DNA of 64,000 nucleotides, taken from the NCBI RefSeq assembly GCF_014203275.1, contig NZ_JACHIP010000002.1, positions 496,001-560,000 on the forward strand, written 5' to 3'. Below are positions 14,343-27,728 of the stretch, in pieces. The notes under the pieces were generated by a model, which worked only from the letters and a program-made list of their open reading frames with translations, was not told the origin of the DNA and did no database searches. The number at the start of each line of letters is the position of its first letter. Positions within the stretch are counted from its first letter, which is position 1. Source of the DNA: Granulicella aggregans (lineage in GTDB: Bacteria; Acidobacteriota; Terriglobia; Terriglobales; Acidobacteriaceae). Made by a program: the position numbers and the translations under genes.

Positions 14343-15452
14343 ATGGCCAGGCCGATGCCATTGACTCTGCGCGCGACCCTCCCCGGAGGTCAGATCTTGA
14401 CCTGTTTCGCCGCTTTTGCGCTGACTCTGGGTCAGGTTTTCGTTGCGGCCCAGACTCCCCCGGCCGCGACGCGGTTTCACCTCTCCCACGCAGCCATGGG
14501 CACCGAGTTCACCATCGACCTCTACGCAAAGGACCAGTCGACCGCCGAGCAGCAGGCAAACGTCGCCTTCGACGAGATCGATCGCCTCGAAGACCTGCTC
14601 AGTAACTACCGGCCATCCAGCGAGTTATCCCGAATCAGTCGCGATGCCGGGAATGGCCCCGTCGTCACTGATCCCGAGACCTTTCAATTTCTCGAGCGTT
14701 CCCTTTTCTGGAGCCAGCGCTCCAGCGGAGCCTTTGACATCACTGTCGGCCCGCTGCTGCGTGTCTGGGGTTTCTATCAGCATGGCGGCCGAGTACCTTT
14801 AGACACCGAACTGAAGTCCCTACGCGATTCCATCGGTTCCGAGAAGATAACCCTCGATGAAGAGCACCGTAGCGTCTCCTTCAAGAATCATCATGCGATG
14901 GACCTCGATCCCGGAAGCATCGGCAAAGGTTTTGCTGTGGACGCCGCCGTCCGCCTGCTGCGCGAAGCCGGAGTGCAGTCAGCGCTTATCTCCGCCGGCG
15001 GAAGCACGCTCTATGCAATCGGAGCCCCACCCGGAGAAAGCGGCTGGATCGTGAAGGTAGAAGACCCGCGATCCACCGGCATCACTGCGGCGACCGTCTT
15101 GCTCAAGGACACATCCCTCTCCTCCGGAGCCTGCACCCAGAAGTTCTTCATCAAGGACGGCCATCGCTACTGCCACATCTTTAACCCGCAGACCCTGCGG
15201 CCCATGGAAGGCGTCCTGCAAAGCACCGTCATCAGCCCAAGCGCGACCGACAGCGATGCACTTTCTACCGTAGTCTTCGTTCTTCCACCAGAAGCTTCTC
15301 GCCAGTTGCTGACGTCTATGCCCAACACCGAAGCTCTCCTCTTCCGTGGCCCCACCCCGGTCAGCGATTGCATTGCCATAAACTGGCAGGGCCAACCGTG
15401 TTCACCCAACCATAGCTCTTCGAAATCTCCCTCCCAGGAAAAAGGAAACTGA
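14343..15452 (+). CDS. apbE: Exported ApbE-type FAD:protein FMN transferase
   Basis: The 369-residue protein has a hydrophobic export signal (about residues 18-36) and then the ApbE core: MGTEFTI near residue 52, GAFDITVGPLLRVWGF, the FAD-site stretch LDPGSIGKGFAVD, ISAGGSTLYAIG, IFNPQTLRPM and the metal-binding SATDSDALSTVVFVL. ApbE enzymes attach FMN covalently through a phosphodiester bond to Thr or Ser of exported proteins. The usual glycine pair of the LDLGGIGKGY motif is changed to PGS here, a mild oddity. It is followed after three bases by an exported Gfo/Idh/MocA gene, so the two are almost certainly co-transcribed. No protein in the window shows an obvious flavinylation motif, so its substrate is unknown. 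Confidence 0.88.
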   Translation: MARPMPLTLRATLPGGQILTCFAAFALTLGQVFVAAQTPPAATRFHLSHAAMGTEFTIDLYAKDQSTAEQQANVAFDEIDRLEDLLSNYRPSSELSRISRDAGNGPVVTDPETFQFLERSLFWSQRSSGAFDITVGPLLRVWGFYQHGGRVPLDTELKSLRDSIGSEKITLDEEHRSVSFKNHHAMDLDPGSIGKGFAVDAAVRLLREAGVQSALISAGGSTLYAIGAPPGESGWIVKVEDPRSTGITAATVLLKDTSLSSGACTQKFFIKDGHRYCHIFNPQTLRPMEGVLQSTVISPSATDSDALSTVVFVLPPEASRQLLTSMPNTEALLFRGPTPVSDCIAINWQGQPCSPNHSSSKSPSQEKGN

Positions 15453-15455
15453 ACC

Positions 15456-16721
15456 TTGATCAGCCGCCGTCAATTCACCCAGAGTCTCTCTGCTCTTGCC
15501 GTATCTGCCTCCACCGGGGTGCTGAATGCTGCCACCGAAGCCTCGAGCATCGAGGCAGCTGAAACCGATGCGGCCCGTCAGATCGCCCCAGCAAAAGATA
15601 GCTCCCCGTTTCGCCTGGGAATCATCGGCGCAGGCAGCCGCGGACAGGAGCTCATCCGTAGCTTCCTGCGCGTCCCTGGCGTCTCCGTCGCTGCTGCAGC
15701 CGATGTCTACGAGCCCCGATTCGCGCAGCTCAATCGCATCTGCGGACACGAGGTCGCACCGCATAAGGACTACCGCGCTCTTCTCGACCGCAAGGACCTC
15801 GACGCTGTCATCGTTGCCACGCCGTTGGGCCTCCACGGAGAGCACGTCGTCGCAGCTCTTTCCAGTGGTCATCACGTCTATGGCGAGAAGGTCATGGCCT
15901 ACACCGTCGAACAGGCCAACGCCATCGTAGCCGCAGCCAGCGAGAACAAGCGCATCTATCAGATCGGCCACCAGTATCGCTACTCGCCCTGGATCCGTGC
16001 CGCGGTACAACGCGTCCAGCAGGGAGAGATCGGCGACGTCACCCACATCATCGGCTACTGGCACCGCAACAACGACTGGCGCCGCCCCGTGCCTGATCCA
16101 TCGCTCGAACACCTCATCAACTGGCGACTCTATCACCAGTGGTCGCTCGGACTCATCGCGGAGCTTGGCTCACATCACATGGACATCGCCAACTGGGTCT
16201 TCGGCGAATATCCCGAAGCCGCCCTGGCGTCAGGTTCGATCTGCCGCTATCACGATGGCCGAGAGACCGACGACAACGTGCAGGCGATCCTCAGCTACTC
16301 GGGCGGACGCCGCTTCATCTTCACATCGATCACCGACAACGCCAAGATGGGCGATCAACTTTGGCTCTATGGCACCAAGGGATCACTGAACCTGACTCTT
16401 CAGGATGCAACCTTCTTCTATGAGCCGAAGAAGATCACCAAGCCTGTAGTTGCCGCCAACGGAAAGGATGAAGGTGTCGTCACCAGTGCGTCTTACAATC
16501 CTTCGAACGAGATGCCCTATCGAGGCCCCGGCAAGCCTGTTGACGTATCGACAGCCGAAGATCCGACAACGGCAGCGACGCGGGCCTTCATCTACTGCGT
16601 CCGCACGGGCACGTCTCCGATTGCCGATGCAAAGGTCGGTTTAGGCTCTGCACTTGGAGTGATCCAGGCAAACGAGTCACTCAGATTGCGGAAGGAAATC
16701 CCAATCTCCTCAAAGGCGTAG
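15456..16721 (+). CDS. Tat-exported Gfo/Idh/MocA family oxidoreductase
   Basis: The 421-residue product starts with TTG (three bases after the apbE stop, with AAGGAAA upstream) and reads MISRRQFTQSLSALAVSAS, a twin-arginine signal. Motifs are a Rossmann site LGIIGAGSRGQELIRSFL, the EK pair in VYGEKVMAYTVEQA, and a C-terminal ELGSHHMDIANWVFG with the catalytic-type His. It is a different subgroup from the oxidoreductase at 11846-13165 (that one has EKP and HEVDVCRW), so the cassette holds two exported oxidoreductases. Coupling to apbE is striking because this family uses NAD(P), not FMN. The 3' end faces the Lrp-type gene with only 14 bp between stop codons. Confidence 0.87.
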   Translation: MISRRQFTQSLSALAVSASTGVLNAATEASSIEAAETDAARQIAPAKDSSPFRLGIIGAGSRGQELIRSFLRVPGVSVAAAADVYEPRFAQLNRICGHEVAPHKDYRALLDRKDLDAVIVATPLGLHGEHVVAALSSGHHVYGEKVMAYTVEQANAIVAAASENKRIYQIGHQYRYSPWIRAAVQRVQQGEIGDVTHIIGYWHRNNDWRRPVPDPSLEHLINWRLYHQWSLGLIAELGSHHMDIANWVFGEYPEAALASGSICRYHDGRETDDNVQAILSYSGGRRFIFTSITDNAKMGDQLWLYGTKGSLNLTLQDATFFYEPKKITKPVVAANGKDEGVVTSASYNPSNEMPYRGPGKPVDVSTAEDPTTAATRAFIYCVRTGTSPIADAKVGLGSALGVIQANESLRLRKEIPISSKA

Positions 16722-16735
16722 CACCGCAGCGATTA

Positions 16736-17218
16736 TCAGCGGCGACGCTTCGCCGTGGGCTTCTCCAACTCAAGGTTGAACTCGTGGCGCACGACCGTAT
16801 GCGAGAGCACAAGGCTGGTTGTGGGCACACCATAGCTCAGCAGCTTCATGATGAGCTGCTCCAGTTCTTCTATGGACGACACCAGCACCTTCATCATCAG
16901 GGCGTCGCCTCCGGTCACGTGGTCGCACTCACGCACCGCTTCAAGCGTCTTCACAAACTGCGTGAACTGGCGATAGCGCTCACCATCGCAGACCATGCGG
17001 ATATGCGCCTTGACCGCATAGCCCAGCGCCGCCGGGTCGATGTCGATCCTGTATCCACGAATGATCTTCGCCTCTTCAAGGCGATGAACGCGTTCCGCCG
17101 TCGCTGAAGGAGAAAGGCCAACACGCCGGCCAAGTTCGGCATAGGTAGCGCGCGGATCTTTCTGCAGTTCGACCAGGATCTTGCGGCCGATGTTGTCGAG
17201 AACGGAGCCATTGTCCAT
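16736..17218 (-). CDS. Lrp/AsnC family transcriptional regulator
   Basis: The 160-residue protein has an N-terminal winged helix-turn-helix (about residues 8-60, ATYAELGRRVGLSPSATAERV) and a C-terminal RAM ligand-binding domain (about 70-148, with HVTGGDALMMKVLV, the usual ligand-site Gly/Asp stretch). Lrp-type proteins bind amino acids and form octamers. GGGAGG lies seven bases before the ATG. It is the next gene after hutD on the same strand, separated by 334 bp, so it has its own promoter region. Control of the histidine operon by histidine or a product is a reasonable inference from position, not shown. No adjacent site could be assigned. Confidence 0.88.
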   Translation of the reverse strand: MDNGSVLDNIGRKILVELQKDPRATYAELGRRVGLSPSATAERVHRLEEAKIIRGYRIDIDPAALGYAVKAHIRMVCDGERYRQFTQFVKTLEAVRECDHVTGGDALMMKVLVSSIEELEQLIMKLLSYGVPTTSLVLSHTVVRHEFNLELEKPTAKRRR

Positions 17219-17552: not shown

Positions 17553-18146
17553 CTACTCCAGCACCCGAACGGTGATCCCCACCAGCAAGGCATCGCCATT
17601 CGCAATGACCAACGCCTGATCTTCACCGACCTTCGAAGCCCGCAGAAAATGACCGGCTCCGATCTCGACAACCTGCCCGTTACCCGACTCTTCGAACTGT
17701 GCGTTTCCCGATGAACAGAGGACGAAGAAGTCATCACAGGCGGGCACGGAGTATCGCGTTTCATTGACGATCTCGAACGTCGCATCGACCTTGCCGCGCC
17801 GCACCATCAGGTTCAAGTCCTGCGTAGCCCCACCGAGCAGGTCGCATACAACCTCTTCTTCACCACGAAAGAAGAAAGGAGAGCGCGGTTCGTCGAGTCG
17901 ATGATCGGGCCACGCCGGTGAGCGAAGAACCACGCCGTCTCCCTGCCAGAGCAGGATCGTGCGATCGATCCCCGGAAACGCAGAGAACTCTCCCCGCGCA
18001 TCGATCTGCGCAATACTGAGGCGCCATAAGAAGTCGTTGGCCCCGGCCTCTGCGGGTGACATCGCAAGCTGCCGCGTGGTACCTCCACCGTTCTTCCACG
18101 GAATGGAGGCCACGCTATCAATCGCAATGGGCGCTTGAATCTCCAT
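17553..18146 (-). CDS. hutD: HutD family protein
   Basis: The 197-residue protein has the HutD/Ves signature near its N terminus (SIPWKNGGGTTRQLAM, then FLWRLSIAQIDARGEFSAFPGIDRTILLWQGDG). The fold is a double cupin. HutD is found in many histidine-utilisation loci; it is known in Pseudomonas to affect fitness on histidine and is thought to govern hut expression by binding a pathway compound such as formylglutamate. AAGGAA overlaps the end of hutU, eight bases upstream, so translation is probably coupled. It is the last gene of the hut operon. The family call is firm; the mechanism is unsettled. Confidence 0.9.
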   Translation of the reverse strand: MEIQAPIAIDSVASIPWKNGGGTTRQLAMSPAEAGANDFLWRLSIAQIDARGEFSAFPGIDRTILLWQGDGVVLRSPAWPDHRLDEPRSPFFFRGEEEVVCDLLGGATQDLNLMVRRGKVDATFEIVNETRYSVPACDDFFVLCSSGNAQFEESGNGQVVEIGAGHFLRASKVGEDQALVIANGDALLVGITVRVLE

Positions 18147-18153
18147 CAGTTCC

Positions 18154-19893
18154 TTATTCGACGGGCCTGTTCGGAAGCAGCGGCAGCTTCAGGTGCGCCT
18201 TGCGCGCAGTCTCTTCCGCCAGCGCATAGCCCGCGTCCGCGTGCCGCATCACACCAGTCGCGGGATCGTTGAAGAGCACGCGCTTCAGCCGTGCATCGGC
18301 ATCGGCGGTGCCATCGGCAACGATGACGACGCCGGAGTGCTGCGAATATCCCATGCCCACACCGCCGCCGTGATGCAGGCTCACCCACGTCGCTCCACCC
18401 GCGGTGTTCAGCATGGCATTGAGCAGCGGCCAATCCGACACGGCATCGGAGCCATCGAGCATCGACTCCGTCTCCCGATTGGGGCTTGCCACCGACCCCG
18501 TATCAAGGTGATCGCGGCCAATCACAATCGGAGCCTTCAGTTCGCCATTGCGCACCATCTCATTGAACGCAAGCCCTGCAAGATGACGCTGCCCCAGGCC
18601 CAGCCAGCAGATTCGCGAAGGAAGTCCCTGAAAAGCAATGCGTTCGCGCGCCATGTCGAGCCAGCGATGAACGTGATCTTCTTCCGGAAAGATCTCCTTG
18701 ATCTTCGCGTCGGTCTTATAGATATCTTCCGGATCGCCCGAGAGCGCCACCCAGCGGAAAGGCCCTTTGCCCTCACAGAACAGCGGACGAATATACGCAG
18801 GCACGAAGCCCGGAAAATCAAAGGCGTTCTTAACGCCTGCTTCAAGCGCAACCTGCCGAATGTTGTTGCCGTAATCGACCGTGGGAACACCCATCTCATG
18901 GAAGGCAAGCATCGCGCTCACATGCGCGGCGCAGCCCTCTGCCGCTGCATCGCGAAGCGCTGCATGTTGCGAAGAATCCTTGGCAGCATTCTTCCACTGC
19001 TCCACCGTCCATCCGACGGGCAAGTAACCGTTGATAAGATCATGTGCCGAGGTCTGATCGGTAACAAGATCAGGCCGCGGCCCACCAGCCTGTGCGCGGC
19101 GAACAAGCTCCGGCAGCATCTCCGCCGCGTTGCCCAAAAGTCCAATGGACACGGCCTCTTTGCGCTCGCAGTGGTACTGAATCAGCTCAAGCGCATGATC
19201 GAGGTCCCGAGCCTGCTTGTCGAGATAACGCGAGCGTAGACGGAAGTCGATGCGTGACTGCTGGCATTCGATGTTCAACGAACACGCATGGGCAAACGTC
19301 GCAGCAAGAGGCTGAGCTCCGCCCATGCCTCCAAGCCCAGCAGTAAGAATCCAGCGCCCGCGCAGATCGCCACCGTAGTGCTGCCGTCCTGCCTCTGCAA
19401 ACGTCTCGTAAGTCCCCTGTACTATGCCCTGCGAGCCAATGTAGATCCAGCTTCCCGCAGTCATCTGGCCGTACATCATCAGACCCTTGCGATCGAGCTC
19501 GTGGAACTTCGCCCACGTCGCCCACGCTGGCACAAGGTTCGAGTTCGCGATCAACACGCGTGGCGCGTTGGGATGCGTCTCGAAGACGCCGACAGGCTTG
19601 CCTGATTGCACCAGCAGCGTCTCATTGGCCTCAAGCTTCCGCAGGCAATTGAGGATCTCGTCGAAGCACTCCCAGTTACGCGCAGCGCGGCCAATGCCGC
19701 CGTACACCACAAGGCTCTCCGGAGCCTCCGCCACCTCGCTGTCCAGATTGTTCTGAATCATGCGATAGGCGGCCTCACTCAGCCAGTTCTTGCAGGTAAT
19801 CTCGGCGCCACGCGGTGCGCGGATCTGGCGCGAAGGATCGAAGCGGTTAGTGATGGCCTGCTCGGCTGGAGTCTCGATGACGGTAGATGACAT
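18154..19893 (-). CDS. hutU: Urocanate hydratase
   Basis: This 579-residue protein, slightly longer than the common 550-560, matches HutU along its length. Examples are [34 protein letters not shown], the NAD-binding glycine stretch [10 protein letters not shown] near 186-195, [18 protein letters not shown] and [18 protein letters not shown]. It adds water to urocanate to give imidazolonepropionate, using tightly bound NAD+ as an electrophile, in the cytoplasm. It follows the aminotransferase gene after 57 bp and precedes hutD by 7 bp. GAGG upstream of the ATG fits. Nothing appears damaged. Confidence 0.97.
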
Positions 19894-19950
19894 GGCTAAA
19901 TCCTCACGTACTTCTGAATAAATAAGTAATGGCCGGGACAGCGAACAAGC

Positions 19951-21084
19951 TCAACGCGCAAGCGCCTTCCATGCTGCAAGAAACTGATCATTCGCCTCAC
20001 GCGATCCAACACTGACACGGATGTGCGTGTTGAATGCAGGTTCCATCCACGGCTTTACGATGACCCCGCCAGGCAACAAACGCCGCGCTATCTCGGAGGC
20101 ATTGGTGCGAGCATCGAGAAAAAGAAAGTTCGTGAGCGAAGGCGCGGCGGTATCGCCCATCAACTCGAGCTCGGCGCGCATACGCTCACGCTCTGCAACC
20201 GTGCGTGTCACAACGCTGTCCACGTAGCCTCGATCTTCAAGCGCTGCAATCGCACCGATCTGCGCCAGCCGATTCACATTGAAGGGCGCGCGAACTCGGT
20301 CCATCAACTGGATAATCTCAGGGTCCGAGGCGATCGCGTATCCGATGCGAAGCCCCGCGAGACCATACGCCTTAGAGAAGGTCCGAAGCATCAGCCACGG
20401 AATATTGAACTCAGCGAGAATCGAGTGAAAGTCAGGATAGGACGGATCGGCCATCGCATATTCGAGATAGGCTTCATCGAACAACACAAGCGTCTCCGGC
20501 GTAAGGTGATTCAAAATGCTGCGCAAATCTTCGGCACTAATCGACGTGCCAGCCGGGTTCGATGGATTGCCGAAGAGCAGCATGCGGACGCCGGGCGTAA
20601 GCGCCGCCATCACCTCGTCCACGTCCATTTTGTAATCTACACCGATCGATACGGTCGCAACGTCTGCCCCGACAGACTGCGGCCAGATCACATGCAATCC
20701 AAACGAAGGAGCGAACGTAACGACCTGATCTCCGGGAGATAGAAACGTGTGGACCGCGACGGAGATAAGGTCCTCAGAGCCATTGCCAAAGATCAGCTGC
20801 TCCGGCGCAACCTGTAGATAGCCGGCGAGCACAGCACGCAGCGAGTCACAGGAGGCGTCAGGATAAAGACCAATCTCAGCCGCTGCACTAGCGACTGCAG
20901 CGATCACCTTCGGGCTGGGCCCATAAGGGTTCTCGTTGCTGCCAAGCTTGGCGATCTTCTCAACGCCGTAGTGCTTGCGAACGTAGTCGATGGAGAGGCC
21001 CGAGTTATAAAGCGGCAGCTCACGAATCGCCGCGCGAGTCGCGCCCAGAAAGGGCTTCAGTTCGTTCAGCGTTCCCGTGGTCAC
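19951..21084 (-). CDS. HisC-like class I/II PLP aminotransferase inside the hut operon
   Basis: The 377-residue protein has the histidinol-phosphate aminotransferase layout: KLGSNENPYGPSPKV (about 47-59), Asp-Glu-Ala-Tyr in LVLFDEAYLEYA and the PLP lysine in TFSKAYGLAGLRIGY (Lys 238). HisC normally exchanges imidazole-acetol phosphate and glutamate for histidinol phosphate in histidine biosynthesis; relatives act on phenylalanine or tyrosine. Here it lies between the TSUP permease and hutU in a catabolic operon, with a GTG start and AGGAG seven bases upstream. It may transaminate histidine, an aromatic amino acid or imidazole compounds, or it may be the genome's biosynthetic HisC. Context favours a role linked to histidine; the exact reaction is open. 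Confidence 0.85.
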   Translation of the reverse strand: MTTGTLNELKPFLGATRAAIRELPLYNSGLSIDYVRKHYGVEKIAKLGSNENPYGPSPKVIAAVASAAAEIGLYPDASCDSLRAVLAGYLQVAPEQLIFGNGSEDLISVAVHTFLSPGDQVVTFAPSFGLHVIWPQSVGADVATVSIGVDYKMDVDEVMAALTPGVRMLLFGNPSNPAGTSISAEDLRSILNHLTPETLVLFDEAYLEYAMADPSYPDFHSILAEFNIPWLMLRTFSKAYGLAGLRIGYAIASDPEIIQLMDRVRAPFNVNRLAQIGAIAALEDRGYVDSVVTRTVAERERMRAELELMGDTAAPSLTNFLFLDARTNASEIARRLLPGGVIVKPWMEPAFNTHIRVSVGSREANDQFLAAWKALAR

Positions 21085-21127
21085 AGGCTTCTCCTGAATA
21101 AATTACGCATCGGTCGACAGGCAATCA

Positions 21128-22030
21128 CTACGCCTCTGCGACGCTTGGCTGCACTTCCTTATTGAGCGTTTGCGCACGTTCCCTGCTGGCGGCGCGAAGC
21201 ATGTTGAAGCCGGTATAGATCATCACGCAGAAGACCAGCCAACGTAGACCGTAGAGCGGTAGCGAACGGACGAAGTACGCGGCAAGCAATACGCCGGGCA
21301 GACCACCGATCGTCATGCCAATGGCCGCGCGCCAGTTGTAGCGGCTCTGGCGAATGAAGCGAATGCTACCCACCGTGCCAAGAAAAGCGCACGAGCCCAT
21401 CATGATGGGAAACGCCGCGCGCGGGCTCATGCCCAGCATGTACACGACCATCATGCACGGCGCGAAGAATCCAATACCCAGCGTCATCAGCGCGCCAAGC
21501 AGCAGGTTCGCAGCGACGGCGATCAACAGGCGCGGCCCGTCGAGTCCGAGCAGTTCCCCGCCCAGTGGCAACAGGTCAAACTGCCTGCAGAGCAAAAAGC
21601 CAGCCGTGACAAACAGCGTTGTGCCCATGCCGATCTGGATCTTGCGGCGCGGCCAGCGGGAAACAATTCCCGCTCCAAACCACGCACCGGCAGCGGCTGC
21701 AATGATCATCAAGGTCAATGTCTTCGGGTCAACATCGACCACCGACATGTAGATGTATCCCTGCGCGACGGCCGGGATCGTAATGCCAATATTCAGCGTG
21801 CCGGGCAGGTCCTCATCCGCGACGAGGTTCCACACACGATACAGTGCAGTCGTAGTCGCAAAGGCTCCAATACCAAGCGTGTCGAGAAAGAGCGTGAACA
21901 GACCAATGCCGCATTCGCGCAGTCCCGGCCAACGGAGCGACTGCTTCCGTCGCGCCTCTTGATACCAAAGAACACAGAACACCACGGTACAGAGGGCAAG
22001 AGCGATAAAGAGCAGTTGCTTGATCGTCAT
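21128..22030 (-). CDS. TSUP family (TauE/SafE) membrane permease
   Basis: About 300 residues with roughly eight hydrophobic segments arranged as two halves. TSUP marks include GIGLFTLFLDTLGIGAFATT in the first half and LGIGFFAPCMMVVYMLGMSP in the second. TSUP proteins move sulfite, sulfonates and other small organic anions, usually as export or anion uptake systems. The gene lies between hutH and the HisC-like gene with small spacers (132 and 43 bp). Transport of a pathway anion such as urocanate, formylglutamate or formate is possible but only inferred. I take the ATG at 22030 as start; a TTG nine bases earlier is the alternative. Confidence 0.87.
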   Translation of the reverse strand: MTIKQLLFIALALCTVVFCVLWYQEARRKQSLRWPGLRECGIGLFTLFLDTLGIGAFATTTALYRVWNLVADEDLPGTLNIGITIPAVAQGYIYMSVVDVDPKTLTLMIIAAAAGAWFGAGIVSRWPRRKIQIGMGTTLFVTAGFLLCRQFDLLPLGGELLGLDGPRLLIAVAANLLLGALMTLGIGFFAPCMMVVYMLGMSPRAAFPIMMGSCAFLGTVGSIRFIRQSRYNWRAAIGMTIGGLPGVLLAAYFVRSLPLYGLRWLVFCVMIYTGFNMLRAASRERAQTLNKEVQPSVAEA

Positions 22031-22162
22031 GATCGCCAAAGCCTCGTTTCTTTCGAAAAAGATTGCGGTGACCCGACGCGGTCTCCTTGACGGAGCGTGA
22101 CCGAGCGATTTCTGTGGGCTTATTGCAAGTCTAGCGCCTGCGGGAACAATTCCTCAACGGCT

Positions 22163-23680
22163 TCATGCAGCGACCGAAGCCTGTACCTCGATATTGTTCA
22201 ATGATCCCGAGGCGATGAACTTCTCCGCTCCAGTCATGCGCGTCGAAAGAACGCAGTCCTTGGACCACGCGGGGACATACTCACGGAACCGGCGTATCGC
22301 CTCCTGCAGAACAGGAGTGGTCTCGCTTTCTTCGCGGAAGTCGAGTGCGCGCGTTGCCGCCATCAACTCAATCGCGACGATCATGCGAGCCAGCTTGACC
22401 GACTGCTCCAGCTTCAGCGCGGAGGTCATGCCCATGCTGACGAAGTCTTCCTGGTTGCCGCTGGTGGGCAGTGACCCAGTCGACGCAGGAGTAGCAAGCA
22501 CGCGCATCTCCGCGTAGAGACCAGCCGCAGTAACCTGCGCGATCATCAGCCCAGACTCGATGCCCGGGGCCGATGCGAGGAATGCTGGAAGCCCTTCGTT
22601 CAGCGTCGGATTCAGCAGGCGCTCGGTGCGGCGCTCGGAGATGCCAGCAATCTGGCAGATCGCGATCGCAAGGTAGTCGAGGTTCAGCGCAAGCGGAGCG
22701 CCATGGAAGTTGCCGCCGGAGAGGATGTCTTCCTCGAAGACGAGCGGATTGTCGGTAGCGCTGTTCAACTCAATCTCGAAGACTCGGCGAGCCTCTCGCA
22801 ACGTGTCCCACGCGGCCCCATGTACCTGGGGAATGCAGCGGAGACAGTAAGCGTCCTGAATCTTGCGATTCACACCCTGCGTGCGCGGAATGGGGCTATC
22901 GGCCAGCAGAGACCGCATGTGCTCCGCGCTGTGCAACTGACCGGGATGCGGTCGAACCTTGTGCAGGCGAGCATCGAAGGGGACCGGAGTTCCGCGCAGC
23001 GCCTCCATCGTGATGGCGGCGGATGTCTGCGCGGCAACAAACAGCGTCTCAATCTCCTTCAACTGCAGGCAGCCGATCGAAAGCATCGCCTGCGTGCCGT
23101 TCAGCAACGAGATGCCTTCCTTTGCCTGAAGCTGCAATGGCTCGAGACCCGCTAGCACGAGGCACTCCGATGCGGGACGAACCTTGCCTTCATACTCGGC
23201 ATCACCTTCGCCGATCAGGGCCAACGCCATGTGCGCCAGTGGCGCAAGGTCGCCGCTCGCGCCAACGCTCCCGCGCGATGGAATCACCGGCGTAACGCCG
23301 CAGTTCAGCAGGTCGCAGATTCTCTCCGCGATGACCGGCCGGATGCCCGAAACGCCCTTGGCCAGCACATTCGCTCTGATCGCCATCAGGCCGCGAACCA
23401 CCTCGCGCGCCAGCGGCTCGCCCACACCGCAGCAGTGCGAGCGCACAAGGTTGATCTGCATCTCTTCAATCTCTGCATGACCCAGCGCAATGTTCGCAAG
23501 CAGACCAACGCCTGTGTTCAACGCATACACCGGCTGCGTGCTCAGCATCGCTTCTTCCACGAAGCGACGCGAAATCGACATGCGCTCAAGGGCGGAGGGC
23601 GCAATCGAAACCTGGTCGCGACCATAGGCAATTGCAACAACTTCATCAACGCTGAAGCTCATTCCATCTAACTGGATCAT
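22163..23680 (-). CDS. hutH: Histidine ammonia-lyase
   Basis: The 505-residue enzyme carries VYALNTGVGLLANI (catalytic Tyr region) and GSVGASGDLAPLAH, whose Ala-Ser-Gly (141-143) cyclises to the MIO cofactor. Further family marks are IQDAYCLRCIPQVHGA and the NPLVFEEDILSGGNFHGAP stretch. It removes ammonia from L-histidine to form urocanate, the first step of the pathway. The length is normal. Flanking genes hutF and the TSUP permease are on the same strand with spacers of about 130 bp, long enough for an internal promoter or mRNA processing site. Confidence 0.97.
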   Translation of the reverse strand: MIQLDGMSFSVDEVVAIAYGRDQVSIAPSALERMSISRRFVEEAMLSTQPVYALNTGVGLLANIALGHAEIEEMQINLVRSHCCGVGEPLAREVVRGLMAIRANVLAKGVSGIRPVIAERICDLLNCGVTPVIPSRGSVGASGDLAPLAHMALALIGEGDAEYEGKVRPASECLVLAGLEPLQLQAKEGISLLNGTQAMLSIGCLQLKEIETLFVAAQTSAAITMEALRGTPVPFDARLHKVRPHPGQLHSAEHMRSLLADSPIPRTQGVNRKIQDAYCLRCIPQVHGAAWDTLREARRVFEIELNSATDNPLVFEEDILSGGNFHGAPLALNLDYLAIAICQIAGISERRTERLLNPTLNEGLPAFLASAPGIESGLMIAQVTAAGLYAEMRVLATPASTGSLPTSGNQEDFVSMGMTSALKLEQSVKLARMIVAIELMAATRALDFREESETTPVLQEAIRRFREYVPAWSKDCVLSTRMTGAEKFIASGSLNNIEVQASVAA

Positions 23681-23814
23681 AGTTTCATCCTACGTAAAAA
23701 TAGCTATCCCGGTGAATGGGGAATCAACGACACTTTTGCTTGCTACGGCTTGATTGCCTGCTTTTAACCGCTCTGAACCGGCGGATCCCCTGCCAAAATC
23801 GATCAGCTCCGAAC

Positions 23815-25203
23815 TTACGCTGGCAACGAAGACAGGCGACGAGCAACTGCGGTGTAACGTGTCACAATTTCTTCGGTCAGTGCGCTTTGCCTGTTTGAAA
23901 CCAGAACGCGCCCGTTGCTCACGACATCGCTAACAGCAGTCCTCTCTGAACCAAACACGATGGTTGAGAGCAACTCCTTCGGGGCCGCCCCAGCGATCGA
24001 AACATCGTTTAGATCAAGCGTGAAAAAGTCCGCAGGGTTACTGATCTTGAGTTCACCCGTGTTCATCCTAAGACTCTTCGCGCCCCCGGTCGTCGCATAG
24101 CCGAAGAGGCGCTGCGAGATCTCCTCCCCGTTGATTCCATCAAGCAACACGCGGCGTTCCCGCTTCAAGCGAAGGTGATAGTCAAGCTCACGTGCATCTT
24201 CGAGCAGATTGATATTTGCCTGGCTATCCGTACCGAAAGAGAACGGTACGCCCGCGCCACATGCTTGATCCGCATCGATGATGCCGTCGCCAAGATTACG
24301 TTCGGTCGTCGGACAGGAACATATGGTCGCACCCGCGCACGCCAGATGCGCGATCTCTTCCACCGTCACATGGATCGCATGGACCAGCGTGGTGTTGCTT
24401 GAGAGCAGATTGTTCTCCACCATCAGCTTGATCGGCGTGTACCCATACTCACGCACGCACGCGGCCAACTCCGCAGCCTGCTCGGCCATGTGCATGTGAA
24501 TAGGCAAGCCGCGCATCTCCGCCCACTCGCTGATCTTCCTCACTTCATCGAGCGTAACGGCGCGAATGCTATGTGGAGCTACCCCAAACGTAACGGTCGG
24601 ATCCAGGCCCTGGAGGTCTGCGGCAAGCCGCTCCATGCTATTGAGGTATTCGACGTTCGTCTCGTAAAACCGCGCCTGCCCCGGGTTCGGCGGCAGTTGA
24701 TAACCTGCGCGCGAATAAGCGACGCGCAGCAGACAGATGCGAAGACCAACGGAACGCGCTGCTTCAATCACCGCCATCGAGAGAAGATTCGGATCGTCGT
24801 AAGCCGTGCCATCAGGCTGGCGATGAAGATAGTGGAACTCGCCTACTGCTGTGATGCCTGTAAGCGCCATCTCGAGGAATGCCATCCGCGCAACATCATA
24901 AAGCTCTTCGGGAGTAAGCTGCGAAGCAGCACGATACATCGTATTGCGCCACGCCCAGAAGTCATCCCCGTTGGCTCCGCAGTGTTCCGCAACACCACGA
25001 ATGAGCCGCTGAAACGTGTGCGAGTGACCATTGACAAGCCCCGGCAGCATCGCCTTGCCCGGCATCCTGACGTTTTTTGCACCGTTCGCCTCCAGGTCCG
25101 CGCCGATGTTCAGAATTACACCATCGCCTCCAACGAGCAGCCCCATACCTGCATGGAATGCGCCTTCCATGTAGAGAAGTTCTGGGAGATAAAGTGTTGG
25201 CAT
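23815..25203 (-). CDS. hutF: Formimidoylglutamate deiminase
   Basis: About 462 residues of the amidohydrolase superfamily. The metal site appears as MLPGLVNGHSHTFQRL (His-x-His near 60-62), followed by FGVAPHSIRAV, the HMAEQ helix and FGTDSQANINLLE with the catalytic Asp. HutF converts N-formimidoyl-L-glutamate to N-formyl-L-glutamate and ammonia, one zinc per subunit. The ATG at 25203 is preferred over a TTG six codons upstream. Its presence defines the five-step (formylglutamate) variant of histidine degradation and requires a downstream deformylase. It follows the M20 hydrolase gene after 45 bp. Confidence 0.93.
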   Translation of the reverse strand: MPTLYLPELLYMEGAFHAGMGLLVGGDGVILNIGADLEANGAKNVRMPGKAMLPGLVNGHSHTFQRLIRGVAEHCGANGDDFWAWRNTMYRAASQLTPEELYDVARMAFLEMALTGITAVGEFHYLHRQPDGTAYDDPNLLSMAVIEAARSVGLRICLLRVAYSRAGYQLPPNPGQARFYETNVEYLNSMERLAADLQGLDPTVTFGVAPHSIRAVTLDEVRKISEWAEMRGLPIHMHMAEQAAELAACVREYGYTPIKLMVENNLLSSNTTLVHAIHVTVEEIAHLACAGATICSCPTTERNLGDGIIDADQACGAGVPFSFGTDSQANINLLEDARELDYHLRLKRERRVLLDGINGEEISQRLFGYATTGGAKSLRMNTGELKISNPADFFTLDLNDVSIAGAAPKELLSTIVFGSERTAVSDVVSNGRVLVSNRQSALTEEIVTRYTAVARRLSSLPA

Positions 25204-25248
25204 CTTATTGCTCGCTTTCAAGGTGTTTTGCGTGATTCGTGATGACGA

Positions 25249-26382
25249 TTAGCTAAGACCGTTCAGCAGCAGATGTTTGATGATGTTGGTCCACTCTTCA
25301 AGTTCGTCTATGGGCACGCGTTCGCGCTCGCTGTGCGCCGTCTCCATATCGCCTGGACCAACAACGACAGTTTCCTCAGCGAGAGAAGCGAAGCGAGTGG
25401 CTTCTGAGCCGAAGGAGATCCCGGTCTCTGCGCGGTTTAACAGGCTGCACAGCTTTGCTCCAAGCAGGTCTCCAGCAGGATTCGAGAAACCCGAGTCGGC
25501 GCGCAGGACGTTTATTTCGATCTCGCAGTTGGGATGGTCGAAGGAGGTGGCTCTAGCGAGGTCGTTCAGTATGCTGCCACCAAGCTGGGGATCTTCGCTA
25601 GGCAGTGGTCGCCATTCGACAAGGAAGCTGCAAGCACCGGCAACGATATTCTTGGCCGTTCCACCTTTGAGGACGCCAACGTTGAACGTCGTCACTGGTG
25701 GCGTGAAGCGGTCGTCGCCTTGCTCGTTCGCCTGCCGCTGCATCTGCTCCAGCCTGACGATGAGGCCTGCTGCTGCGTTGATCGCGGAGGCTCCGCGATA
25801 CGGGAAGGCACTGTGCGCTTCACGTCCACGCACGTTCACTTCCGCAAGCGCATAGCCTTTGCCCGCCGTCGCGGGACGTAGCGATGTAGGCTCGCAGACG
25901 ATGACATAGCGCGGCCGGATAGCTCCGCTTGCAGCGAGCTTTGTAGCGCCGATGCAGCCGATCTCTTCTTCCGCGGTAAAGGCAAAGGCCACGGGTCTCT
26001 TGATAGACGTTGTATCGACTTGAAGCGCAGCGGAGATTAACGCGGCAAGCGAGCCTTTAACATCGCACGATCCATTTCCATGCAGGAAGCCGCCCTTCTC
26101 CGTGAGAACCGTGGCATCCGTCCATTCGCTACGAAAAGGCACGGTGTCGGTGTGGCAAACAAAGAATAGCTCCACATCAGGCAGCGAGTCCTTGAACTGG
26201 CTGGGAACCGCGAGAAGGTTAGCCTTCTCAACACCGTCGGCAGCGATGTAAGGGAAGCGTTGAATAAACCACCCATGCGGTTCGAGCAGCGATTGAATCG
26301 CATCAAGTAACGGGCCATTCGAAAGCGAAGAAACGCTTTCAATGCCGACCAAGGCGCGCAATATCTCAGAGGTCGCGAGCAC
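25249..26382 (-). CDS. M20 family metallohydrolase (ArgE/DapE-like), candidate N-formylglutamate deformylase
   Basis: The 377-residue protein shows the M20 di-zinc site: His in FFVCHTDTVP (about 77), bridging Asp in GNGSCDVKGSLAAL (about 107), Glu-Glu in AFTAEEEIG (about 138-139), a Glu in VIVCEPTSLRP and His in VVGPGDMETAHSERERV. It resembles ArgE/acetylornithine deacetylase, which hydrolyses N-acyl amino acids and also accepts some N-formyl ones. The preferred start is a GTG two bases after the hutI stop, with AGGAGG inside the hutI end; a TTG at 26391 would overlap hutI. It lies between hutI and hutF. No HutG-type protein is visible, so removing formate from N-formylglutamate is the inferred task; acetylornithine deacetylation remains the alternative. 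Confidence 0.85.
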   Translation of the reverse strand: MLATSEILRALVGIESVSSLSNGPLLDAIQSLLEPHGWFIQRFPYIAADGVEKANLLAVPSQFKDSLPDVELFFVCHTDTVPFRSEWTDATVLTEKGGFLHGNGSCDVKGSLAALISAALQVDTTSIKRPVAFAFTAEEEIGCIGATKLAASGAIRPRYVIVCEPTSLRPATAGKGYALAEVNVRGREAHSAFPYRGASAINAAAGLIVRLEQMQRQANEQGDDRFTPPVTTFNVGVLKGGTAKNIVAGACSFLVEWRPLPSEDPQLGGSILNDLARATSFDHPNCEIEINVLRADSGFSNPAGDLLGAKLCSLLNRAETGISFGSEATRFASLAEETVVVGPGDMETAHSERERVPIDELEEWTNIIKHLLLNGLS

Positions 26383-26384
26383 AG

Positions 26385-27665
26385 CTAGCAAACCTCCTGT
26401 CCAGAGACGAAGACGCGAGGTCTCGAAGGCGTAGCGATAAAGTACGCAAGCTCGCGATAGTCATCAAACTCGTGGATGACGAAGTCGGCCTTCTTGCCAA
26501 CTTCCAGTGAGCCGATCTCATGCGCCAGATTCAGGCTTGCCGCAGCGTTGATGGTTGATGCGACCACCGACTCCGCAGGGAGCATCTTCATATAAAGAGC
26601 GGCAAGCGAGATGATGAAGGGCATCGAAGCAGTCGGCGATGAACCAGGGTTGAAGTCCGTTGCGATCACCGGCGCAAGCCCCGCTTCGATCATCGCTCGA
26701 GCGTTCGGATACTCCGTACGGCCAAGCGCGAAGACCGACGCGGGCAGCAGAACAGGCTGTACACCGGCGTCTTTCAGCGCGGGCATATCGTCAACAGCCA
26801 TGCACTCAAGATGGTCAGCAGTTGCCGCGCCAAGCTCAGCCGCAAGCTTCGCTCCGCCATCGGAGCGGAACTGCTCTACGTGCATGCGAAGCTCAAGGCC
26901 GCTCCGTTTCGCGTGTTCGAGGAGCGGGCGCGCCTCAGCGACAGTGAAGGCGTGATCGTCGCAGAAGATATCGCAGTAGCGTGCAAGCTTCTCTTCGCAC
27001 ACAGCGGGTATGATCTGCTTCGTGATCAGCGCAATATACGCGTCACGATCAGCACGGAACTCCGGTGGAATCGTGTGCGCGGCAAGCAGCGTAGGCACGA
27101 TCTTCATCGGCACCTGCTGTTGCAACGTTCGCAGCGCACGCAATATCTTCAACTCCGATTCAACGGAAAGCCCGTAACCAGACTTCGCCTCGATGGTCGT
27201 AGTGCCGCCGCGAAGAAACCACTCCGCGTGGCGCTGTCCTATTGCGACGAGATCCTCTTCCGATGCCTTGCGTGTGTTGCCGAGAGTGGACGCGATCCCC
27301 CCACCCGCGGCTGCGATCTCCTGATACGTCCGGCCCGCGATACGTTGTTCGAAGTCGCCAAGACGATTACCGCCGAAGAGCAGATGCGTATGCGCATCGA
27401 CGAAGCCCGGCATGACGGTGCGGCCTTGCGCGTTGATGATCTCCGCATCAGCCGGAGCGACCGCCCTGATCTCCGCGTAGCTGTCGACAGCTGCGATGCG
27501 GCCGTCCACAATCAGCATCGCCGCATCGTTGCGGATGCCGAGGTCCAGCAACTCAGCGCCGGTTCGCGCTCGTGAAGGGCCTGCGACCGTGACGAGCTGT
27601 CCGCAGTTCACGACGATCGATGTTGATGGACCTTGCGGGGCCGATGAATCTTTGCTGAAGCTCAC
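26385..27665 (-). CDS. hutI: Imidazolonepropionase
   Basis: About 426 residues. The metal site is in MPGFVDAHTHLLFGGNRLGD (His-x-His near 92-94), with further HutI marks RTYQEIAAAGGGIASTL, GTTTIEAKSGYGLS and ATDFNPGSSPT. The enzyme opens the imidazolone ring to N-formimidoyl-L-glutamate in the cytoplasm. I choose GTG at 27665 because GGAG stands five bases upstream; a GTG nine codons earlier lacks a good ribosome site. It is the first hut gene and starts 63 bp after the ankyrin-gene stop, so the operon may be read through from the exported genes upstream or start from a promoter inside that short gap. Confidence 0.95.
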   Translation of the reverse strand: MSFSKDSSAPQGPSTSIVVNCGQLVTVAGPSRARTGAELLDLGIRNDAAMLIVDGRIAAVDSYAEIRAVAPADAEIINAQGRTVMPGFVDAHTHLLFGGNRLGDFEQRIAGRTYQEIAAAGGGIASTLGNTRKASEEDLVAIGQRHAEWFLRGGTTTIEAKSGYGLSVESELKILRALRTLQQQVPMKIVPTLLAAHTIPPEFRADRDAYIALITKQIIPAVCEEKLARYCDIFCDDHAFTVAEARPLLEHAKRSGLELRMHVEQFRSDGGAKLAAELGAATADHLECMAVDDMPALKDAGVQPVLLPASVFALGRTEYPNARAMIEAGLAPVIATDFNPGSSPTASMPFIISLAALYMKMLPAESVVASTINAAASLNLAHEIGSLEVGKKADFVIHEFDDYRELAYFIATPSRPRVFVSGQEVC

Positions 27666-27728
27666 ACAATCTCCGGGCGGCAGGCTCGGCACTGCTGCCT
27701 GAACCTGGTTCCTGCGCGCACTTGAATC

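Follow-up and report, generated by a model that had tools for sequence, protein, structure and literature searches.

An ArgE-like M20 hydrolase predicted to replace HutG in a histidine utilization operon of Granulicella aggregans and in a clade of HutF-linked relatives

Histidine degradation through the formimidoylglutamate deiminase HutF yields N-formylglutamate, which in Pseudomonas is the substrate of the FGase-type deformylase HutG (PF05013, COG3741). Formiminoglutamase of the COG0010 type and glutamate formiminotransferase (FTCD) act instead on N-formiminoglutamate, making HutF unnecessary. These two, the former as HutG2, are the other known ends of the hut pathway in the excerpts of PMC5343134 and PMC3223725, the first of which distinguishes two known HutG types in Proteobacteria. 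Here we describe a hut operon in a 64,000-nucleotide stretch of the Granulicella aggregans genome (hereafter the window; G000:C2:496001-560000; genome size 7.3 Mb, estimated completeness 99.85%) that contains a gene for an ArgE-like M20A metallohydrolase (minus strand, 25249-26382). We propose, as a strong genomic prediction that we hold to be quite probable, that this gene encodes an N-formyl-L-glutamate deformylase replacing HutG. The window M20 shares the proposed reaction and the place in the pathway with HutG, both acting on the product of HutF, but it is an M20A hydrolase that does not match PF05013, its families being PF01546 and PF07687.

Another branch of M20, the ureidoglycolate/allantoate type, includes At5g43600, which we take to be UAH. 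In the excerpt of PMC3223725 (Table 3, case 20), the family of this protein, COG0624, is listed as the SEED-predicted ‘alternative form of N-formylglutamate deformylase’. The general idea, an M20-superfamily protein that replaces HutG in the context of histidine degradation, is therefore not new, and the original prediction of such a replacement is supported for the clade described here but had been preceded in a different M20 subfamily. The two branches are distinct: BLASTP with E. coli AllC gives no match to the window M20 at E 1, and the AtUAH structure is farther from the model of the window M20 (Z 28.9, 14% identity) than ArgE is. ErtE (NF058540), which ends a hut-like ergothioneine pathway, is an M20-type hydrolase like the window M20 and has its family name, N-carbamyl-L-glutamate amidohydrolase, from an N-acyl-type glutamate. 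The ErtE model is matched by the allantoate/hydantoinase-type M20s of this genome but is absent from the list of the 25 best-scoring families of the window M20. Ergothioneine degradation, considered because of ErtE, was rejected because the window HutU scores as a true urocanase, with thiourocanate-type models scoring lower than TIGR01228 and under their own cut-offs. Separately, three hydantoinase/carbamoylase-type M20 proteins of the genome (L005, L007 and L009) are over the TIGR01879 cut-off, and L009 also passes an allantoate amidohydrolase model. We found no paper on the M20 clade of the window in the open-access literature, and PMC9007349 does not mention formylglutamate. What appears to be new is the clade itself, with its distribution, and the HutF-M20 module.

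The operon runs on the minus strand from 17553 to 27692, with hutI, the M20 gene, hutF, hutH, a TauE-type gene, an aminotransferase gene, hutU and hutD all head to tail. HutH, HutU, HutI and HutF, all four named from the sequence in the original prediction, are each matched by their own TIGR family: imidazolonepropionase HutI (26385-27692) by TIGR01224 (423 bits, cut-off 298), HutF (23815-25221) by TIGR02022 (480.5 bits, cut-off 413), histidine ammonia-lyase HutH (22163-23680) by TIGR01225 (623 bits) and urocanate hydratase HutU (18154-19893) by TIGR01228 (926 bits). As had been noted, the M20 gene lies between hutI and hutF, its GTG start codon at 26382 following the hutI stop codon (26387-26385) after two bases, and its ribosome-binding-like site, AGGAGG (26398-26393), lies within hutI. 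The reading frame extends to the stop at 25249 and encodes 377 amino acids; an alternative TTG start at 26391 would overlap the hutI stop.

Because HutF yields N-formylglutamate, a deformylase is expected. No HutG had been seen in the window, and for the FGase type this absence extends to the whole genome (PF05013, 0 matches), whereas HutG of the COG0010 type (PF00491) was not searched for. A hutG gene elsewhere in the genome had been named as an outcome that would refute the original prediction, and none of the FGase type came up. The genome also carries one FTCD_N (PF07837) protein, a glutamate formiminotransferase homologue, which corrects the earlier reading and is weighed below. We infer the substrate of the M20, its reaction and the direction of flux as follows. 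HutH, HutU, HutI and HutF would turn histidine into N-formylglutamate, and the di-zinc site of the M20A enzyme, where zinc would bind a water and E139 would serve as general base, would split the formyl amide into glutamate and formate. The M20 would then be a non-orthologous replacement, on an ArgE fold, of FGase-type HutG.

The window M20 scores 84 bits against PF01546 and 68 bits against M20_dimer. The full di-zinc site that had been read in its sequence is present (H77, D79, D107, E139, E140, E164, H190 and H350), following the zinc and catalytic residues of M20A in the excerpt of PMC11511702. In the M20 tree, 65 sequences including that of the window form a clade on one side of a branch (Shimodaira-Hasegawa-like approximate likelihood ratio test, SH-aLRT, 100), and both the metal ligands (H77, D107, E140, E164, H350) and the catalytic residues (D79, E139, H190) are the same in every clade row that covers them (63-65 of the 65). 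Trees and column counts of M20 leave out the near-duplicate loci L021, L074, L097 and L111 and the fragment L112. The last had looked like a pseudogene, a reading that we rejected, as a stretch of N in the contig accounts for the apparent break.

An AlphaFold2 model of the window M20 (mean predicted local distance difference test score, pLDDT, 94.3) has the two-domain ArgE/DapE fold, and its top structural match is E. coli ArgE (M20A; 8UW6, 7RSF; Z 42.7, root-mean-square deviation 2.9 over 368 residues, about 30-31% identity), with which it has the fold and all zinc-site and catalytic residues in common. Furthermore, it scores 305.2 bits against TIGR01892, the acetylornithine deacetylase equivalog (cut-off 297.7), and four further clade members scanned with this model reach 325-484 bits. 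Both results would suit a genuine N-acetylornithine deacetylase, serving arginine synthesis and placed in the hut operon by chance. However, ArgJ (PF01960) is encoded in this genome at 422 bits, as it is in all 20 relatives searched with it, so that arginine synthesis does not need the window M20 as ArgE. Moreover, the M20 is missing at E 1e-30 from 8 of the 13 other genomes of the same genus in the set, and its association is with hutF. We therefore regard an arginine role with chance placement as very unlikely. A role as the only ArgE had been named in the original prediction as an outcome that would overturn it: among 11 M20 proteins of the genome scanned against NCBIfam (the window M20 and 10 of the 15 others among 16 hits, the weak L012-L016 left out), only that of the window exceeds the TIGR01892 cut-off, yet with ArgJ encoded this does not refute a hut function. 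A plasmid search with the M20 gave, among 30 of 375 records, matches at 32.6-34.6% identity, 22 of the 30 being annotated argE.

Apart from its operon and the presence of ArgJ in the genome, the window M20 differs from E. coli ArgE at several residues that are invariant in the clade, among them A90, Y177, A192, S199, E256, W257, R294 and F324; K244, also unlike E. coli ArgE, is conserved in 95% of the clade. K244 and R294, both positively charged, may bind formylglutamate through its side-chain carboxylate. A second acidobacterial M20 clade does not share these two residues.

We compared M20, HutF and FGase across 247 Acidobacteriota genomes, searched with thresholds of E 1e-30 or better for M20 and E 1e-60 or better for HutF: 18 genomes have a match to M20, 30 to HutF and 23 to FGase. 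M20 stands beside HutF in 15 of its 18 genomes, ten of them with members of the window clade (at least 42% identity, the window included) and five with members of the second clade (28-31%). FGase is found within the hutF cluster in six genomes (G096, G123, G139, G152, G165 and G191), which have no M20 match at E 1e-30. Across the hutF clusters of the 30 genomes, 15 hold M20 only, 6 FGase only, 9 neither and 0 both (Fisher's test, p = 0.008, relatedness ignored). The co-occurrence of this M20 with HutF that the original prediction had proposed to check across Acidobacteria is thus observed, as is its absence from hutF clusters with FGase; one M20 genome (G067) has a weak FGase match (80.6 bits) on another contig. 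Urocanase is present in all 30 HutF genomes.

The clade reaches beyond Acidobacteriota into Myxococcota. We searched genome contigs with nine clade sequences and kept the best 80 loci, so that the clade may be larger; as the search used M20 alone, it was not biased towards HutF. Sixty of the 80 loci have at least 40% identity and belong to Acidobacteriota and Myxococcota (Corallococcus, Archangium, Myxococcus), at least three of the 60 genomes being the same contigs as genomes in the set of 247 (L074, L097, L111); below them identity drops to 34% or less, in 20 loci of mixed phyla. Of the 60 clade loci, 53 contain HutF, always on the same strand as M20, which is the genomic coupling expected of an N-formylglutamate deformylase; HutF stands elsewhere in the genome in 3-4 more. 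The gap between the alignment envelopes of M20 and HutF is under 300 nt in 36 of the 53, and hutU and hutI stand between the two in seven more. By comparison, hut genes are found at 0 of the 20 more distant M20 loci, and no genome of these has a HutF over the cut-off, the closest (G342) scoring 384 of the 413 bits. Urocanase is encoded in 57 of the 60 clade genomes (of unstated completeness). FGase exceeds 200 bits in only 2 of the 60, exactly two Archangium genomes in which M20 is not beside HutF; three others score 28-45 bits. Among the seven exceptions to the coupling, HutF is elsewhere in the genome for L087 and L110 and beside FGase for the Archangium loci L098 and L106, in the genome of the latter as a fragment at a contig edge; in one of these two Archangium genomes, that of Archangium lansinium, the only HutF over the cut-off adjoins FGase.

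M20 and HutF also pair where the rest of the pathway is encoded elsewhere. Eight loci (three Acidobacteria of family f21 and those of G008, G067, G200, G238 and G246) have the pair with no HutU, HutI or HutH in the stretch fetched around it; six of these genomes have HutU on a different contig, and it is about 600 kb off in G025 and about 13 kb off in G075. Similarly, four Corallococcus genomes have hutU-hutI on contigs other than that of hutF. This pairing ties the M20 to the product of HutF rather than to histidine itself, and it bears on the alternative that the M20 acts ahead of HutH, freeing histidine from compounds such as N-acetylhistidine or carnosine-like dipeptides. The M20 family does include dipeptidases and aminoacylases (PMC11511702, excerpt), and a different, secreted-looking M20 (PRK09133) adjoins several hut loci. 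However, the clade M20 keeps to HutF even where hutHUI sit elsewhere, no signal sequence is visible by eye at its N terminus, and an upstream enzyme is not expected to avoid FGase as it does in the six acidobacterial genomes with FGase in the cluster, all of which makes histidine release by the clade M20 decidedly unlikely. The PRK09133-type M20 may itself release histidine from peptides outside the cytoplasm. NCBIfam (NF006596) assigns to it M20s by hut genes at L018:16360-17787, L044:4561-5931 and L033:6744-7973, with relatives by similarity at L019:2414-3943 and others, and loci of this type span Edaphobacter/Granulicella, G110 and family f47. The M20 beside HutI in family f47 (L033) was considered as a deformylase and rejected, since it is PRK09133 with a signal-peptide-like N terminus (by eye) and has relatives in Edaphobacter/Granulicella loci where the clade M20 is present already.

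In the HutF tree, from which rows shorter than 250 amino acids were left out, M20-partnered HutF (59, and 3 with neither partner) and FGase-partnered HutF (7, and 6 with neither) split at a branch of support 100. Across 50 loci, pairwise distances of M20 and HutF correlate with r = 0.883, a value that none of 2000 permutations attained, a correlation to which shared species history contributes. The five weaker acidobacterial M20s (28-31% identity to that of the window) group with L050 of G015, apart from the window clade, with which they may share an origin (support 64). We consider it likely that the M20 clade, every scanned member of which passes the acetylornithine deacetylase model, is a further non-homologous enzyme finishing the hut pathway in Acidobacteriota and Myxococcota, inherited with its own HutF lineage as a two-gene module; the second, deeper clade of HutF-paired M20s in other acidobacterial families may belong to the same ancient module.

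The main rival to a deformylase function involves FTCD_N. Under this explanation the glutamate formiminotransferase homologue drains N-formylglutamate by passing the formyl group to tetrahydrofolate, and the M20 has another role in histidine use. FTCD_N is encoded by 225 of the 247 Acidobacteriota, this genome among them, and members of COG3643 are reported, in the excerpt of PMC3223725, as an alternative way to metabolise 5-formyltetrahydrofolate. In three clade genomes that lack HutF (G272, G277, G287), FTCD lies near M20 or hut genes. However, FTCD_N is nearly universal in the phylum, and eight same-genus genomes that lack a full-strength urocanase match have it too, so that it does not track HutF. 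Furthermore, only 2 of the 15 Myxococcota clade genomes have FTCD_N; it is lacking in the other 13 with M20 kept, and in G200, which carries an M20 of the second clade. Eight Myxococcota genomes (G264, G268-G271, G273, G274 and G278; among them Corallococcus sicarius, C. interemptor and C. exercitus; completeness not stated) have HutF over the cut-off and urocanase with no match to FTCD_N or FGase. In these eight the M20 is, judging from sequence matches, the only candidate among the enzymes searched for, which did not include HutG of the COG0010 type. We consider drainage through FTCD_N improbable. The M20 might also cleave another N-acyl glutamate or a related by-product of running the hut pathway, such as N-acetylglutamate, in keeping with the action of ArgE-like enzymes on several N-acyl amino acids, but since genomes negative for both FTCD and FGase would then have no enzyme for the N-formylglutamate step, we judge it extremely improbable.

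Several observations weigh against a deformylase function of the M20. The NCBI equivalog model names the window M20 an acetylornithine deacetylase, and FTCD_N, in principle able to take the formyl group, is also encoded in 14 of the 15 acidobacterial HutF-M20 genomes, among them this one. The more distant M20s of three acidobacterial genomes (G015, G024, G050) come without HutF at the threshold used. Of the 30 HutF genomes, 9 have neither partner in the fetched stretch, two of them with hutF at a contig end (G172, G110), the seven hutF loci away from contig ends (L026, L030, L032, L033, L034, L039, L045) having no FGase and no ArgE-like M20 of the two clades; HutF can thus occur without a recognisable deformylase beside it. 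In the clade genomes G272, G277 and G287 (loci L103, L108 and L112) M20 is present with no HutF over the cut-off. FTCD lies near M20 in L103 and L108, and in L112 it adjoins hutU, an arrangement that may hint at removal of N-formylglutamate produced by the formiminotransferase. The two Archangium genomes keep M20 despite having HutF with FGase, so that the M20 may do something else too. Finally, a Streptomyces avermitilis protein of the COG0624 subfamily predicted by SEED had no deformylase activity in an assay (PMC3223725, excerpt). Set beside these points, genomic context and clade-wide co-occurrence with HutF support the replacement of HutG by the M20 as a prediction, not as proof.

The operon extends beyond the hutI-hutF stretch, and its remaining members are a TauE/SafE-type (TauE/TSUP) membrane protein (21128-22039, PF01925, 78.7 bits), a HisC-like class I/II aminotransferase (19951-21084) and HutD (17553-18146, PF05962, 158 bits), all on the minus strand. 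The aminotransferase is over the TIGR01141 cut-off (294.5 bits, cut-off 276.6) and scores 470 bits against PRK05166, below the cut-off of 540. Among the loci examined, the pair of TauE-type and HisC-like aminotransferase genes is also found within the hut locus of L053, and L026 has another TauE-family gene after hutF (L026:8413-9192). An Lrp/AsnC-type regulator gene adjoins the operon (16736-17218, minus strand, PF13404/PF01037), and related Lrp genes are divergent at the head of the hut operon in L017-L022, L061, L062, L065, L097 and L111. The region 14343-16721, also adjoining the operon, holds an ApbE-like and a Gfo/Idh-like oxidoreductase open reading frame, both named by eye.

If the M20 clade has the predicted function, the missing step of the textbook pathway would be filled in two common soil phyla and a specific enzyme clade named for it. 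A set of database ‘acetylornithine deacetylases’ would then be misannotated, misleading predictions of both the arginine and the histidine pathways. The replacement of HutG by an M20 protein, an idea recorded as invalidated once a protein of another subfamily had given a negative assay, would be reopened.

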